A stretch of 22,040 nt of DNA, taken from IMG/VR virus record IMGVR_UViG_3300027704_000188, positions 1-22,040 of that record, one strand, 5' to 3'. This document shows positions 17,157 through 22,040 of this stretch, one piece after another. Origin of the DNA: a virus. Under the pieces are notes generated by a model. It was not told the origin of the DNA and made no database searches. It saw nothing but the letters and a program-made list of their open reading frames with translations. A program made the position numbers and the translations under genes. Each line of letters starts with the position of its first letter. Position 1 is the first letter of the stretch.

Positions 17157-19397
17157 TTATGAAATCCTTAACCAAACAGATGTGTTAATTGACTGCGATG
17201 TGCTTGCCAAACTGATATGCCCCATAAGCCTCCACGTCCCAGCGGGGGAAGTAGTCCCCGCTCTGTTTGCGTTTGCATAATCTAACGACGACCCAGCAAG
17301 GGTCGATCCGGGGTTGCGAATGACATTATCGGCAGCAGGGGCGACGGCCAACAGTGCATAAGACCCAACAGAGCCAGCGGCTGCACCAGCACCAGCAATC
17401 AAGCCTGTGTCTGATGTGATGGAGCCAGCGAATACAGCGTCACCAGCTTCATTCATACTATAAACTTCGCCCGCAGATGTATCAGTAGTAATGCGGGCTT
17501 CGCCACTGCCGTTTGACTTTAGCCTGTGCTGGAAACCGTAAGTTCCCCAATTGGTTGTTGCGCCCGTGTAACCTGTGCTCGCTGCAATCATATAAGGTGC
17601 GTCTTGGTTGGATGCGTAGTTAATGACCTCTGCACGAACCTCATCTTGCGATACGACTGTGCCAGTAGCTGTGATATTACCTGTGACTGAGAGCTTCTCT
17701 GCTGGGCTAGTAGTACCAATCCCGACATTGCCCGATGCGTCAATCCTGAGCCTCTCGGAGGCGCTAGTCGTAAGTGTCATATAGTCGCCGTTGTGCGTAT
17801 AACCTACTTTACCTTGGTTTGCAGATGTTGCATCACCAAAGACTAACTGACCAACTCCTGTATCCGGTGTCAGGATTGTAATACCTGCGTTGCCGTTACT
17901 TTCTACCACCAGATCGTCTACTGCCGCACCCGCTGTCCCACCAGAGACCCCTGTGCTTACATGCAGCCTTGCGGTAGGACTAGCAGTACCAATCCCAACT
18001 CGACCATTAGAATTGAACCTTACAAACTCGGTTGCCGACCCTCCACCGTAACCTTGGAATATAAACGACCCATCGGATGCTTCGTTCCTAGCTCTAAAAT
18101 ATGTACGCCCATTCGATTGGGTTATTTGCGTCTGCTGGTTTGTTCCGTCACTATCGTTCATAAAGATATTTGGACTAGGACCAGTGAGGAACAAGTCATC
18201 TCCGATAGTAACGTCACCAGCAATGGCTAATTGAGACGTCGAAGCATCCCAGAGGAAGTCTGCTGTTGTGCCTGTGTCTTCGTAGAACTTAACATCACCG
18301 TTAGCTTCTACCTTCAAACGGTTTGTTGTCGACCCTCCGCCGTAACCTTGGAATAGGAACGACCCATCGGATGCTGCGTTCCTAGACCTGTGATATGTTA
18401 CCCCAGCCGATTGGATTATTTGCGTCTGCTGGTCCGCTGTGTCACTATCGTTTATAAAGATTTTTGGATTAGGACCAGTGATGTGCAAGTCATCTCCGAT
18501 AGTCACATCACTTGTGAAGGTTCCGTTAACAAACGTAGGGCTGTCAGTTGTGCCTAAACCAAGGTTTGTACGAGCAGAAGATGCACTAGCTACGTCAGAT
18601 AGGTTGTTAGCTGTAAGTAAAGCACCTGACAAAGAAGCATAGGCTGCAACCCAAACAGAGCCTGTGTAGACCTTCATCACATCATCAGTCGTGTTGTAAT
18701 ACAAAGCACCAGCAACTAAAGCATTACCATCATTATCTAGAGTTGGGTCACTTGCCTTTGCCCCTAAGTACCGATCATCAAAATTATCAAGTGCTGCAAG
18801 TGCTGCATCCTTAGCTGCCTCAGCACCAGTCTTGGCTGTTTCAGATTCAGTAGCTGACGTAGCTGCATTGGTTGCTGAGGTAGCAGCATTCGTTTGACTT
18901 GTAGCAGCATTCGTTTCACTTGTACCCGCAGCTGTTTCACTTGCAGTAGCATTAGTCTCAGACGTTGAAGCAGCGGTGGCAGCAGCTTGAGCAGCTACAC
19001 GATCTGCATCTACACCAGCCTCACTAGTAGCAGCCGCAGATGCACTTCCAGCAGAAGAAAGAGCAGAATAAGCAGAAGCAGTCTCTGCGGACTCAGCATT
19101 TGTCTCAGCTGTCTCAGCATTTGTCTCAGCAGTTTCAGCAGCTGCCTGTGCAGCCAAAGCAGCAGCCTTAGCAGCTTCTACATCTGACAGGTAGTCAGTA
19201 CCATTAATCAGCAAACCAGCTGCACCAATAATGTTATTACCATTAAGGTCTAGGTCTGCTTCCATAGCATTCGGAGTACTGCCATCCAAAGACAGAGTAT
19301 TATCGAAACTATCACGGAGGGCTTCGAAGTTAGCATTAAGGGTTTCAGTAGAGTTAAACCCTGACTGCAAAGTAGTTACTGTTGGTTTCTTAGCCAT
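17157..19397 (-). CDS. Tail fibre protein
   Basis: A 746-aa fibre. Residues 1-70 look like a virion-anchoring head (FNSTETLNANFEALRDSFDN). Residues 72-205 are Ala/Thr/Glu/Asn/Ser-rich with heptad-like repeats (ETAETN, then AATSxTN), probably a trimeric coiled-coil shaft. DDRYLGAKASDPTLDNDGNAL and YYNTTDDVMKVYTGSVWVA (about 207-252) are hallmarks of phage fibres. Residues 296-356 and 394-454 are two copies of one module (VTIGDDL...TGP.P.IF.NDSD), and VGIGTASP / VGIGTTSP mark two further beta repeats. No C-terminal self-cleaving S74 chaperone motif is evident. It should mediate host adsorption. ATG at 19397 lies two bases past the preceding stop with a poor ribosome binding site, suggesting coupling. 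Confidence 0.9.
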   Translation of the reverse strand: MAKKPTVTTLQSGFNSTETLNANFEALRDSFDNTLSLDGSTPNAMEADLDLNGNNIIGAAGLLINGTDYLSDVEAAKAAALAAQAAAETAETNAETAETNAESAETASAYSALSSAGSASAAATSEAGVDADRVAAQAAATAASTSETNATASETAAGTSETNAATSQTNAATSATNAATSATESETAKTGAEAAKDAALAALDNFDDRYLGAKASDPTLDNDGNALVAGALYYNTTDDVMKVYTGSVWVAAYASLSGALLTANNLSDVASASSARTNLGLGTTDSPTFVNGTFTSDVTIGDDLHITGPNPKIFINDSDTADQQTQIIQSAGVTYHRSRNAASDGSFLFQGYGGGSTTNRLKVEANGDVKFYEDTGTTADFLWDASTSQLAIAGDVTIGDDLFLTGPSPNIFMNDSDGTNQQTQITQSNGRTYFRARNEASDGSFIFQGYGGGSATEFVRFNSNGRVGIGTASPTARLHVSTGVSGGTAGAAVDDLVVESNGNAGITILTPDTGVGQLVFGDATSANQGKVGYTHNGDYMTLTTSASERLRIDASGNVGIGTTSPAEKLSVTGNITATGTVVSQDEVRAEVINYASNQDAPYMIAASTGYTGATTNWGTYGFQHRLKSNGSGEARITTDTSAGEVYSMNEAGDAVFAGSITSDTGLIAGAGAAAGSVGSYALLAVAPAADNVIRNPGSTLAGSSLDYANANRAGTTSPAGTWRLMGHISLASTSQSINTSVWLRIS
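18036..18216. repeat. Direct repeat copy 2 inside the tail fibre gene
   Basis: This 181-base segment matches 18330-18510 at a period of 294 bases (98 codons, in frame), with about 28 differences by manual alignment. It encodes fibre residues about 394-454 and probably arose by duplication of a beta-structured fibre module. Confidence 0.85.
18330..18510. repeat. Direct repeat copy 1 inside the tail fibre gene
   Basis: Partner of the segment at 18036-18216, encoding fibre residues about 296-356. The best-conserved patches encode FQGYGGGS, ASDGSF and NDSD, while residues between them differ, suggesting a kept scaffold with varied surface positions. Confidence 0.85.
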
Positions 19398-19399
19398 TG

Positions 19400-19744
19400 T
19401 TATAACCAGACACGTTTAGGAGCAGAAGGTGTAACACCATGTGATACGTCTAGTGCTTCGGTTTCATCACGAAGAAAATCTCCAGTTAGACGAATGTTGA
19501 CATGCCAGCCTGTCATAGCTACCATCTCAGGGTACTCCATACCATCAGACGTCAGGGTGTTACCTGTAGGCTCCTGTAAGACCCCTACTACGTCGATGGA
19601 GTAGTCTGAGGTGCTACTCACAAACTCGCCTTCCTCGTCCTCGCCTTCCTCGTCGTAAAAAGCAGATAGGACTGTAGCCATATCCGCTTCGCTTGTTAGC
19701 TTCAAAAAGAAGTCAGTCTTGATTACATTTTGTTCTTCTATCAT
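19400..19744 (-). CDS. Small tail-associated protein of unknown function
   Basis: A 114-aa protein with mixed alpha/beta appearance: TDFFLKLTSEADMATVLSAFYDEEGEDEEG at the start and MTGWHVNIRLTGDF near the end. A GWHVNIR-type segment recurs in small proteins encoded beside phage tail fibre genes, but I know no established function. It overlaps the upstream tail gene as ATGA, has GGAGG seven bases before its ATG, and ends two bases before the fibre gene, so it is translationally coupled inside the fibre cluster. It may be a minor tail component or fibre assembly factor. Confidence 0.75.
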   Translation of the reverse strand: MIEEQNVIKTDFFLKLTSEADMATVLSAFYDEEGEDEEGEFVSSTSDYSIDVVGVLQEPTGNTLTSDGMEYPEMVAMTGWHVNIRLTGDFLRDETEALDVSHGVTPSAPKRVWL

Positions 19745-21741
19745 GTTGATGCCTCCACAATACCAGTGTCTGTTAAGTCTTCATCCCACATACGGAACTG
19801 TCCGATTGTACCCATGAATGTGCTACCAAGGAGTAAGTTAGTAGATGACAAGTTAGGGAGGGCCGTTGGTGTGGTGTTGGCTGTTAGTGCTGTACCATCT
19901 ATAGCTCCGTTGAGGAACGTAGAGCCGTGACGTGATGCAAAGTTAAACGGTACGTTGGTGTCAGGAGAGTATGAAGTATTAGGTCCAGTTACAGCGTCTA
20001 ACACTTTGCCGCTTTCTTGCACCCAATAAATCGCCCCTGTTCTTGCTTGGTATGTCGAAAGCATTGAGTAAATATTGTTGGAATTGTCTAAATGCCAGCT
20101 AAAGAATTTACCATTATCACCATCAGTATCAGCATATGTCATCTTACCATCCATCTGGATAGACATGTTAGTAGAGCTATACGGTAGGTTGGCTGCAGGG
20201 ACTGTTAGCAAGTCAGCAGCACGAGTCGCCGCCGAACCTGCTGTTGGAATGTAGCTTGATGGGGTTGAGCCGACTTCTAGTTGTGCGCCATAGACTAAGA
20301 TACCAGATGTACCGTCGCCTTGAAAGGATTTGAAACCATAAGAAGAAGGAGTGTAGGTTCCTGTGTCAGAAGCACCTACGACAAAGTATTTCTCACCATC
20401 TCCGCTAATTGAAACTCTGTAAAAAGAACCTACAGGCTCAACAGTAGCCGTCTTTGATTGTGAACCAGCAGAATACACAGCCGTTTGTGTACCATCAGAC
20501 AAGTCAATAACAACAGCATAGTAGTTGCTGCTGCCGTTCAACCCAGCACAAATCGTAGCAAAGCCGTAACCCGCAGAAGCCACATAAACAGAGACTGAGT
20601 GGTCTGTATTGGGGAGGTTGGGGATTTGATAGGTGTAGTGAACACCAGAAGAAGTGTTAGGAACAACTTTGTTTGCGTTGGAGGTTCCGTCAGGGGACAC
20701 ACCTGCATTTGCTGTATTAGAGTTTTCAGTGGTTATCCAAGACGCACCCGTAAGGTCATTAGAATAAGTAAGCAAGTTAGTACGAGCTTCACTCTCGTGG
20801 AGGATACCTTCGTTAACCCAAGCTGTGCCATTGAAGCGGTGGTGGCCTACACGAGGACCATAGACAGCAGTAGTCGTAGTTGGGACGTAGCTGTCACCTG
20901 TCTCTGAGTTGTTTACCATGCCACCGAGGCTACTGCGGTACATGTGTGCGCCATAAATCTCAAATTCACCTATTTGGGCGGCAGGGCTGTTTTGGTTGTA
21001 CTTCCCAATCATAAAGAACAGTCCAGTGTCATTACCTAGAACAGTAGCCTCAAATGTAACTAACGTCCAAGTGGAGGTTACAGTTAGATTGGTCTGTGGT
21101 GCGTTGTTTGCACCGTTTGTGCGACCATTTAAGCTGAATGTAAGAGAAGTAATAGTGTCACTACGAACCCATGCGGCAAGAGTCACCTTATCTCCTGCAA
21201 TAACCGCAACTGTGGACAAGTTGTAAAGGTGTGAACTTGTACTATTGAAGTTAACTGTGGAGGCTGTGTTAGCTATACCCGTAGGTCCATCTACAGCATT
21301 ATCAACAACAATTGCGTTCTTGTTCCACGTACTAAAGGTGTTTGATTTTGTGATGATGTTATGTGGACGCCACTTCAGCAAGCCATCACTATCAACCATA
21401 GTTGCATTAGAGGAAGCTGTGTGAGTAATAGATGCAGCAAACGTAGAGGCAGTTGCACTCTTACGGTAGTAGTTTTCCTTAAAGTCAAACACCAAGGCTG
21501 GATCAAAACCATTAATAATATACGAACTTAGTGCAAACACTGAAGTACCATTACGTAAGTCTCGCATAGCTTCATAGTAGCTACCGTACTTAAACGTTAG
21601 GTATGCATGAATACGTTCATTCAAGGAACCTGTGTAACCTAAGTCACCCATAGCCTTAAAGTGCATATCATTAATAGAACCAGTGTAACCCTGACTCCTG
21701 AAGTACTGTAAGTCTTCATCTACTGTTGGAAAGAAGAGCAT
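19741..21741 (-). CDS. Modular lectin-like tail protein (receptor-binding candidate)
   Basis: A 666-aa protein. ATG at 21741 is preferred to an in-frame start farther upstream because AAAGGA lies nine bases before it and the upstream part would encode an unlikely Cys/Phe-rich leader. Residues 1-65 form an anchoring-type head with an internal repeat, GYTGSINDMHFKAM / GYTGSLNERIHAYL. Residues about 128-290 and 318-500 look like two carbohydrate-binding-module-type beta sandwiches; both close with a YGA...SY(V/I)PT signature. Residues 520-666 resemble a concanavalin/LamG-like domain (MSIQMDGKMTY, then LLLGSTFMGTIGQFRMWDEDL). It probably attaches to the tail or head and binds host-surface sugars. 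No enzyme active site was recognised. Confidence 0.82.
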   Translation of the reverse strand: MLFFPTVDEDLQYFRSQGYTGSINDMHFKAMGDLGYTGSLNERIHAYLTFKYGSYYEAMRDLRNGTSVFALSSYIINGFDPALVFDFKENYYRKSATASTFAASITHTASSNATMVDSDGLLKWRPHNIITKSNTFSTWNKNAIVVDNAVDGPTGIANTASTVNFNSTSSHLYNLSTVAVIAGDKVTLAAWVRSDTITSLTFSLNGRTNGANNAPQTNLTVTSTWTLVTFEATVLGNDTGLFFMIGKYNQNSPAAQIGEFEIYGAHMYRSSLGGMVNNSETGDSYVPTTTTAVYGPRVGHHRFNGTAWVNEGILHESEARTNLLTYSNDLTGASWITTENSNTANAGVSPDGTSNANKVVPNTSSGVHYTYQIPNLPNTDHSVSVYVASAGYGFATICAGLNGSSNYYAVVIDLSDGTQTAVYSAGSQSKTATVEPVGSFYRVSISGDGEKYFVVGASDTGTYTPSSYGFKSFQGDGTSGILVYGAQLEVGSTPSSYIPTAGSAATRAADLLTVPAANLPYSSTNMSIQMDGKMTYADTDGDNGKFFSWHLDNSNNIYSMLSTYQARTGAIYWVQESGKVLDAVTGPNTSYSPDTNVPFNFASRHGSTFLNGAIDGTALTANTTPTALPNLSSTNLLLGSTFMGTIGQFRMWDEDLTDTGIVEAST

Positions 21742-21749
21742 TAGTCTGT

Positions 21750-21827
21750 TATCCTTTATAAAAGAAAGTATAAACAAGAGAAAGGTTACAGTGTGCTTTA
21801 AAGGATAGCAACAACACAAACTGTAAC
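21750..21827 (-). promoter_or_regulatory. Leader with interleaved inverted repeats overlapping the ribosome binding site
   Basis: In minus-strand RNA, arm A GUUACAGU (21827-21820) pairs with A' ACUGUAAC (21792-21785). Arm B UAUCCUUUA (21807-21799) pairs over nine perfect bases with B' UAAAGGAUA (21758-21750), which contains the AAAGGA ribosome binding site of the tail gene starting at 21741. The order A-B-A'-B' permits either a pseudoknot or two competing states. The loops are 12, 6 and 26 bases long. This could regulate translation of the tail protein; function is inferred from sequence complementarity only. Confidence 0.45.
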
Positions 21828-21842
21828 GGAGTCAACTTGCTT

Positions 21843-22040
21843 TTAGTTTATTAAACCTATTCTATTGGCATCGTCTTCTGTATCAGCTTTATCCATAGCT
21901 GCTTGCTTCAAAACACCATCAAGCTCATCCCTAGATGGACGACCTCTCTTCTTATCGTTACCCTCTAAGTACCCAGCATCTGCTAAGTACTTCTGAGCAT
22001 TGTAACTAGCCTTACCCTCATTAAGATCATTGATCATGTT
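21843..22040 (-). CDS. Unknown small protein, N-terminus outside or at the window edge (partial)
   Basis: An open frame reaches the right edge and ends with TAA at 21843. The visible 65 residues are hydrophilic: NAQKYLADAGYLEGNDKKRGRPSRDELDG, then an acidic helix KADTEDDANRIGLIN. The KKRGRPS stretch resembles an AT-hook-like or nuclear-basic linker, but one copy is not enough to call DNA binding. An ATG exists at 22037, but only three upstream bases are visible, so whether it is the start or an internal Met cannot be told. Proximity to packaging and tail genes makes a packaging or regulatory protein possible. I do not recognise it. Confidence 0.6.
   Translation of the reverse strand, partial: NMINDLNEGKASYNAQKYLADAGYLEGNDKKRGRPSRDELDGVLKQAAMDKADTEDDANRIGLIN

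Follow-up and report, generated by a model that had tools for sequence, protein, structure and literature searches.

The tail gene of the virus studied here is preceded by a leader that is almost certainly a real, conserved structured RNA, consisting of two helices around an asymmetric internal loop and an apical loop that, judged by its complementarity, is likely to occlude the ribosome binding site of the gene. The window, that is, the whole stretch of 22,040 nucleotides analysed, is a 22-kb virus contig, and the leader was studied on its minus strand. The virus is a marine phage, and genes in the window match those of Cobavirinae (Zobellviridae), among them Celeribacter phage P12053L, Lentibacter phages ICBM1 and ICBM3, and Roseobacter phage SIO1.

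The tail gene (19741..21741, minus strand) encodes a 666-aa protein with an LFFPT-type N terminus and falls in PHROG 5939 (tail). Residues 314–521 of the protein match Rcc01080 (PDB 6tb9 and others, E 3.6e-21), the head spike fibre of RcGTA, and so a protein that belongs to a gene transfer agent from a related host group; the match supports a putative role in host-surface binding and agrees with an earlier sequence-only reading of this DNA, in which the gene was taken to encode a receptor-binding protein. A short in-frame N-terminal extension from a TTG at 21819 was rejected, as it is absent in L211. Upstream lies the C-terminal part of a gene (21843..22040, minus strand; phrog_8035) that is probably the small terminase (TerS), as suggested by its position; profile searches named no function for it. 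A 114-aa gene (19400..19744, minus strand) closes the inserted cassette and follows the tail gene in L001, L016, L017, L019, and L050. Short segments of a second tail fibre (MAKKPT; window 17157–19397, minus strand) resemble solved surface-fibre proteins, Bdellovibrio bd2133 among them (8ond, E 4.6e-7; 8ol4).

Two interleaved inverted repeats (A-B-A'-B') had been described in this leader and were found on the minus strand exactly where the earlier reading placed them. Arm A (GTTACAGT, 21827–21820) and arm A' (ACTGTAAC, 21792–21785) match as a repeat and fold as the 5' and 3' arms of the inner helix, P2, the base of which covaries. Arm B (TATCCTTTA, 21807–21799) is an anti-Shine–Dalgarno (anti-SD) sequence with an invariant UCC core in the apical loop, and is complementary over 9 bp to arm B' (TAAAGGATA, 21758–21750), which holds the Shine–Dalgarno sequence AAAGGA (21757–21752). 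The spacing from AAAGGA to the start codon of the tail gene (ATG, 21741–21739) is 10 nt, not nine as claimed. By repeat search, B/B' can be extended to 12 nt at 92% and A/A' to 11 nt at 91%. Because arm B sits within the loop of A-A', both pairings could form together as a pseudoknot, as had been proposed, and the alternative proposal of mutually exclusive arms falls away. When perfect interleaved arms of at least 8 and at least 9 nt within 95 nt were sought, the window yielded a single instance; dinucleotide shuffling produced the pattern in 5 of 60 windows, and shuffling of the leader itself did so in 7 of 20,000 trials. Taken alone, the interleaved pattern is unusual for a 107-nt leader and only mildly so for a 22-kb window; the comparison with relatives is therefore the decisive evidence.

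The earlier reading had the repeats right and overlooked an outer helix, P1, and a conserved internal loop. The window leader runs in the order P1, internal loop CUCC/CUU, P2, and apical loop with UCCUU, with P1 and P2 amounting to ~20 bp altogether around the asymmetric CUCC/CUU loop. The 5' arm of P1 (AAGCAAG, 21842–21836) begins directly after the TerS-like stop codon and folds, through covarying pairs, with the 3' arm (CTTGTTT, 21778–21772). Between P1 and P2, the GA of a UGA motif that is invariant in nine leaders (21832..21833) pairs with UC at 21781–21780, and the internal loop is formed in the alignment by CUCC on the 5' side (21828..21831) and on the 3' side by CUU (21782..21784), which lies within ACCUUUC (21786–21780), likewise invariant in the nine.

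Relatives were found using the tail protein, its first 70 residues, and two upstream-gene families as queries. The resulting leader set, alignment A4, comprises nine distinct leaders of 98–115 nt from Cobavirinae-type contigs in three lineages: the window's own leader (W) with L045; L048; and a third lineage, C, made up of L049, L050, L057, L052, L047, and L046. The same hairpin is predicted for each of the nine leaders folded singly, and P1 occupies an identical register throughout: W has AAGCAAG/CUUGUUU, L048 has AAGACAGA/UCUGUUUU, and the third lineage has AAAGAGA/UCUCUUU. Of the cells that the 12 pairs of P1 and the P2 base occupy in A4, 98.1% hold standard pairs; two-sided changes are seen at six pairs and in 12 cells, against a shuffle mean of 3.6, and the covariation score was reached by none of 500 shuffles. 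When the register was slid by 1–3 columns, pairing fell to 50–66% with at most one two-sided pair, and RNAalifold independently predicted both P1 and the base of P2, with a total of nine pairs changed on both sides. G-U pairs also occur among the helix variants, which argues for an RNA rather than a DNA-level repeat. Covariation of the arms, which had been named as a check on the earlier reading, is thus clear for the A-A' hairpin, with compensatory changes in three lineages; the B-B' pairing stands up to this check only partially.

These changes bear on whether the repeats arose by chance, act in transcription as a terminator or promoter, or mark a DNA recombination site at the border of the cassette. 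The recurrence of the two-repeat pattern in shuffled windows and the location of the leader at that border fit such readings, but the compensatory changes, G-U pairs included, do not, and we consider them highly improbable. No terminator-like site (a GC-rich stem followed by a T run) was found in 21500–22040, and the promoter search gave no supported site, the only promoter-like match being at chance level and outside the hairpin.

Rfam returned no match at E up to 1 for window positions 21000–22040; its only match, to mir-460, was a chance one elsewhere in L048. The leader is a new RNA family, absent from Rfam. A covariance model run against 43 records recovered one leader copy per genome and nothing else convincing, and gapped-pattern searches gave no leaders beyond those already known. 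A scan of viral contigs for TGTAACCTTTCTCT hit at least 119 stretches, apparently by chance because the pattern is too short. One sequence that resembled the leader, L232, was rejected because it overlies unrelated genes. Genome contigs searched with the tail N terminus yielded no relative, and the sole match to it in phage records was a remote one, T5S1, in which the tail gene overlaps the upstream gene and there is no leader.

The apical domain varies among the nine leaders except for a conserved island, UCC(U)U, which is complementary to the conserved AGGA of the Shine–Dalgarno sequence. Loop and site are contiguously complementary over 9 bp both in W (UAUCCUUUA/UAAAGGAUA) and in L048 (AUCCUUUUA/UAAAAGGAU), and over 7 bp in L045; the L048 binding site carries one additional A, opposite one additional U in the loop. 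Shuffling of the loops gave p values of 0.0025 (W), 0.0078 (L045), and 0.0023 (L048), and the duplex energies of these three leaders are −8.0 to −11.3 kcal/mol, compared with −5.8 to −6.0 for the 16S anti-SD. In the third lineage, pairing is confined to the core UCCUU/(A/G)AGGA (5 bp, one of them G-U), shuffled loops match the binding site equally well, and the duplex is weaker than that with the 16S anti-SD (−5.1 versus −6.1 kcal/mol). By pair counting, the 9-bp loop–site helix is 76% paired with one two-sided pair, a level that slid registers also reach, and its covariation across the nine leaders is not significant. The predicted pairing of B with B' over the ribosome binding site, as first proposed, thus extends through W, L045, and L048, and the third lineage retains no more of it than the core. 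All three lineages conserve this anti-SD core, but the complementarity supports a pseudoknot in only two of them.

By a rough estimate with Dirks–Pierce-like penalties, forming the pseudoknot is more favourable than the lone hairpin by ~5 kcal/mol in both W and L048. The L3 linker, which would have to run against the long P1+P2 stack, measures 13 nt in W and 7 nt in L048; with only 7 nt, P1 of L048 probably must open for the pseudoknot to form, and at least this leader may be unable to hold both structures at once. Once P1 is open in the third lineage, its 3' arm and the adjacent pyrimidines can pair with the binding site instead. As the 5' arm of P1 lies at the stop codon of the TerS-like gene, translation of that gene might melt P1 and so toggle the site between free and hidden. 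Masking the 5' arm of P1 does raise the predicted pairing of the site from 0.46–0.68 to 0.85–0.89 in lineage C and from 0.43 to 0.73 in L048, the added pairing coming from the P1 3' arm or nearby pyrimidines, but it has no effect in W (0.74 to 0.73) or L045 (0.97 to 0.97). The distance from the stop codon to P1 also varies, with the stop of L052 lying farther upstream and L046 carrying a different upstream gene. As a general mechanism such a switch was rejected on account of W, L045, and the L052 stop, and we judge it very unlikely overall.

Letters invariant across the leaders are those of the internal loop and its borders (UGA, CCUUUC), the apical UCC(U)U, and the AGGA of the Shine–Dalgarno sequence. 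The internal loop (UGA-CUCC/CCUUUC) is nearly invariant, whereas the helices on either side of it vary. This pattern would suit an operator or riboswitch in which a protein of phage or host origin, or else a metabolite, binds at the internal loop and opens or locks the fold. The preQ1-I and SAM-II pseudoknot riboswitches hide the Shine–Dalgarno site through a loop that pairs with the downstream ribosome binding site, and the loop of the present leader is likewise complementary to such a site; it differs from them in its stems, its large hairpin, the lack of an Rfam match, and the lack of a known ligand. In T4, gp32 uses a pseudoknot in the leader of its own mRNA to repress that mRNA; according to a 2010 review, this is perhaps the only viral pseudoknot in translational autoregulation (PMC3014915). 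The gene 32 leaders of T4, T2, and RB69 resemble the present one in being phage mRNA leaders that combine a hairpin with a pseudoknot topology and closely precede the gene they control (PMC3014915, PMC535899), but there the pseudoknot nucleates gp32 binding ~67 nt upstream and protein coats an A+U-rich stretch that spans the ribosome binding site, whereas here the leader's own loop complements the binding site and no protein is known. With no matching Rfam family or known ligand, and with conserved pyrimidines that may be merely anti-SD sequence, we regard the operator or riboswitch reading as improbable.

The hairpin might instead serve as a T7-type RNase III processing signal: such a hairpin lies between genes, has ~20 bp and an asymmetric internal loop, and would here be cut to release a separate tail mRNA. 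Its intergenic position and the two helices, about two helical turns in all, flanking a conserved asymmetric internal loop suit this reading, but RNase III sites are not known to require conserved loop letters or a UCCUU loop matching the binding site. A comparable design is found in T7 R1.1, a 60-nt RNA between genes 1.0 and 1.1 with two stems and a 4/5 asymmetric internal loop; the RNase III of the alphaproteobacterium S. meliloti, however, cuts R1.1 atypically and prefers longer duplexes (PMC6121014). Unlike such signals, the present leader, known from sequence alone, has helices that covary around conserved loop letters as well as a UCCUU anti-SD loop. If the cut fell on the 3' side, the anti-SD loop would be lost and translation thereby activated, so that processing and translational restraint could be combined in one leader. 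We consider RNase III processing, the chief rival reading, unlikely, but more credible than an operator or riboswitch.

The distribution of the leader ties it to one gene. Every locus in which the LFFPT tail gene comes after TerS has it, and no locus with a MAK-type tail gene in that place does. The cassette, which sits between the TerS-like gene and the next tail-fibre gene, has the order leader, LFFPT tail gene, 114-aa gene (where the contig reaches and the gene is kept), and the MAK-type gene comes after it. In cassette-free relatives the gap from the TerS-like gene to the tail gene is no longer than 38 nt and lacks this leader, the MAK-type start following the TerS-like stop by 1 nt (most of L190–L210), 32–38 nt (L220, L222–L224), or −1 to 6 nt (L226–L230). 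The 32–38-nt gaps of L220 and L222–L224 hold a different short leader (aacaatccaccactggtaaaggattatacacc) before a MAKKPD tail gene. The same tail N-terminal domain also occurs after another gene in L055, L056, and L059–L069, with its ATG 3 nt past the stop and no leader; the upstream gene in these is a basic protein ending in RSYARTKSAGKKNPKD. In L046, the leader stands behind a different upstream gene, so its association is with the tail gene rather than with TerS. The open reading frame upstream of the leader there (L046/L019, 1–93) is the end of a non-TerS-like protein (SIGRKYGVSAATVQGAWRRANLRNR), possibly, at a guess, an inserted endonuclease gene.

Control of the tail gene product by the leader is plausible on these grounds. 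Since the anti-SD loop and the hairpin are conserved and tied to one gene, restraint of tail translation in cis, by hiding of the ribosome binding site, appears the most likely function, and we hold it to be an evenly balanced proposition. The ~100-nt leader, as part of the tail-fibre cassette, would fold into P1, internal loop, P2, and an apical anti-SD UCCUU loop; that loop would pair with the ribosome binding site of the tail gene, as an H-type pseudoknot in two of the three lineages, and so hold back initiation of translation. The leader would thereby supersede the close stop–start junction of cassette-free relatives, and synthesis of the tail protein would be set independently, probably at a low level or late. 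Inhibitory leader hairpins of T4 gene e and other lysis genes similarly hide the start region and restrain translation, but in gene e a late promoter inside the 5' strand gives an unstructured late mRNA (PMC3014915), whereas the promoter search found none inside the present hairpin. It is also conceivable, if doubtful, that the leader represents a new family of switching RNAs, borne by an exchangeable tail-fibre cassette, in which some factor from phage or host is sensed at the invariant internal loop and the RNA flips between P1 and the anti-SD pseudoknot. The three diverged versions of the leader make compensatory-mutation tests possible.

Tail fibres determine host range, and phages swap them as cassettes. 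A conserved leader travelling with the cassette would be evidence that newly acquired fibres come with translational control of their own, replacing reliance on the close stop–start junctions of the surrounding operon; were the switching reading true, a newly acquired receptor-binding protein would arrive with its own control of dosage or timing.
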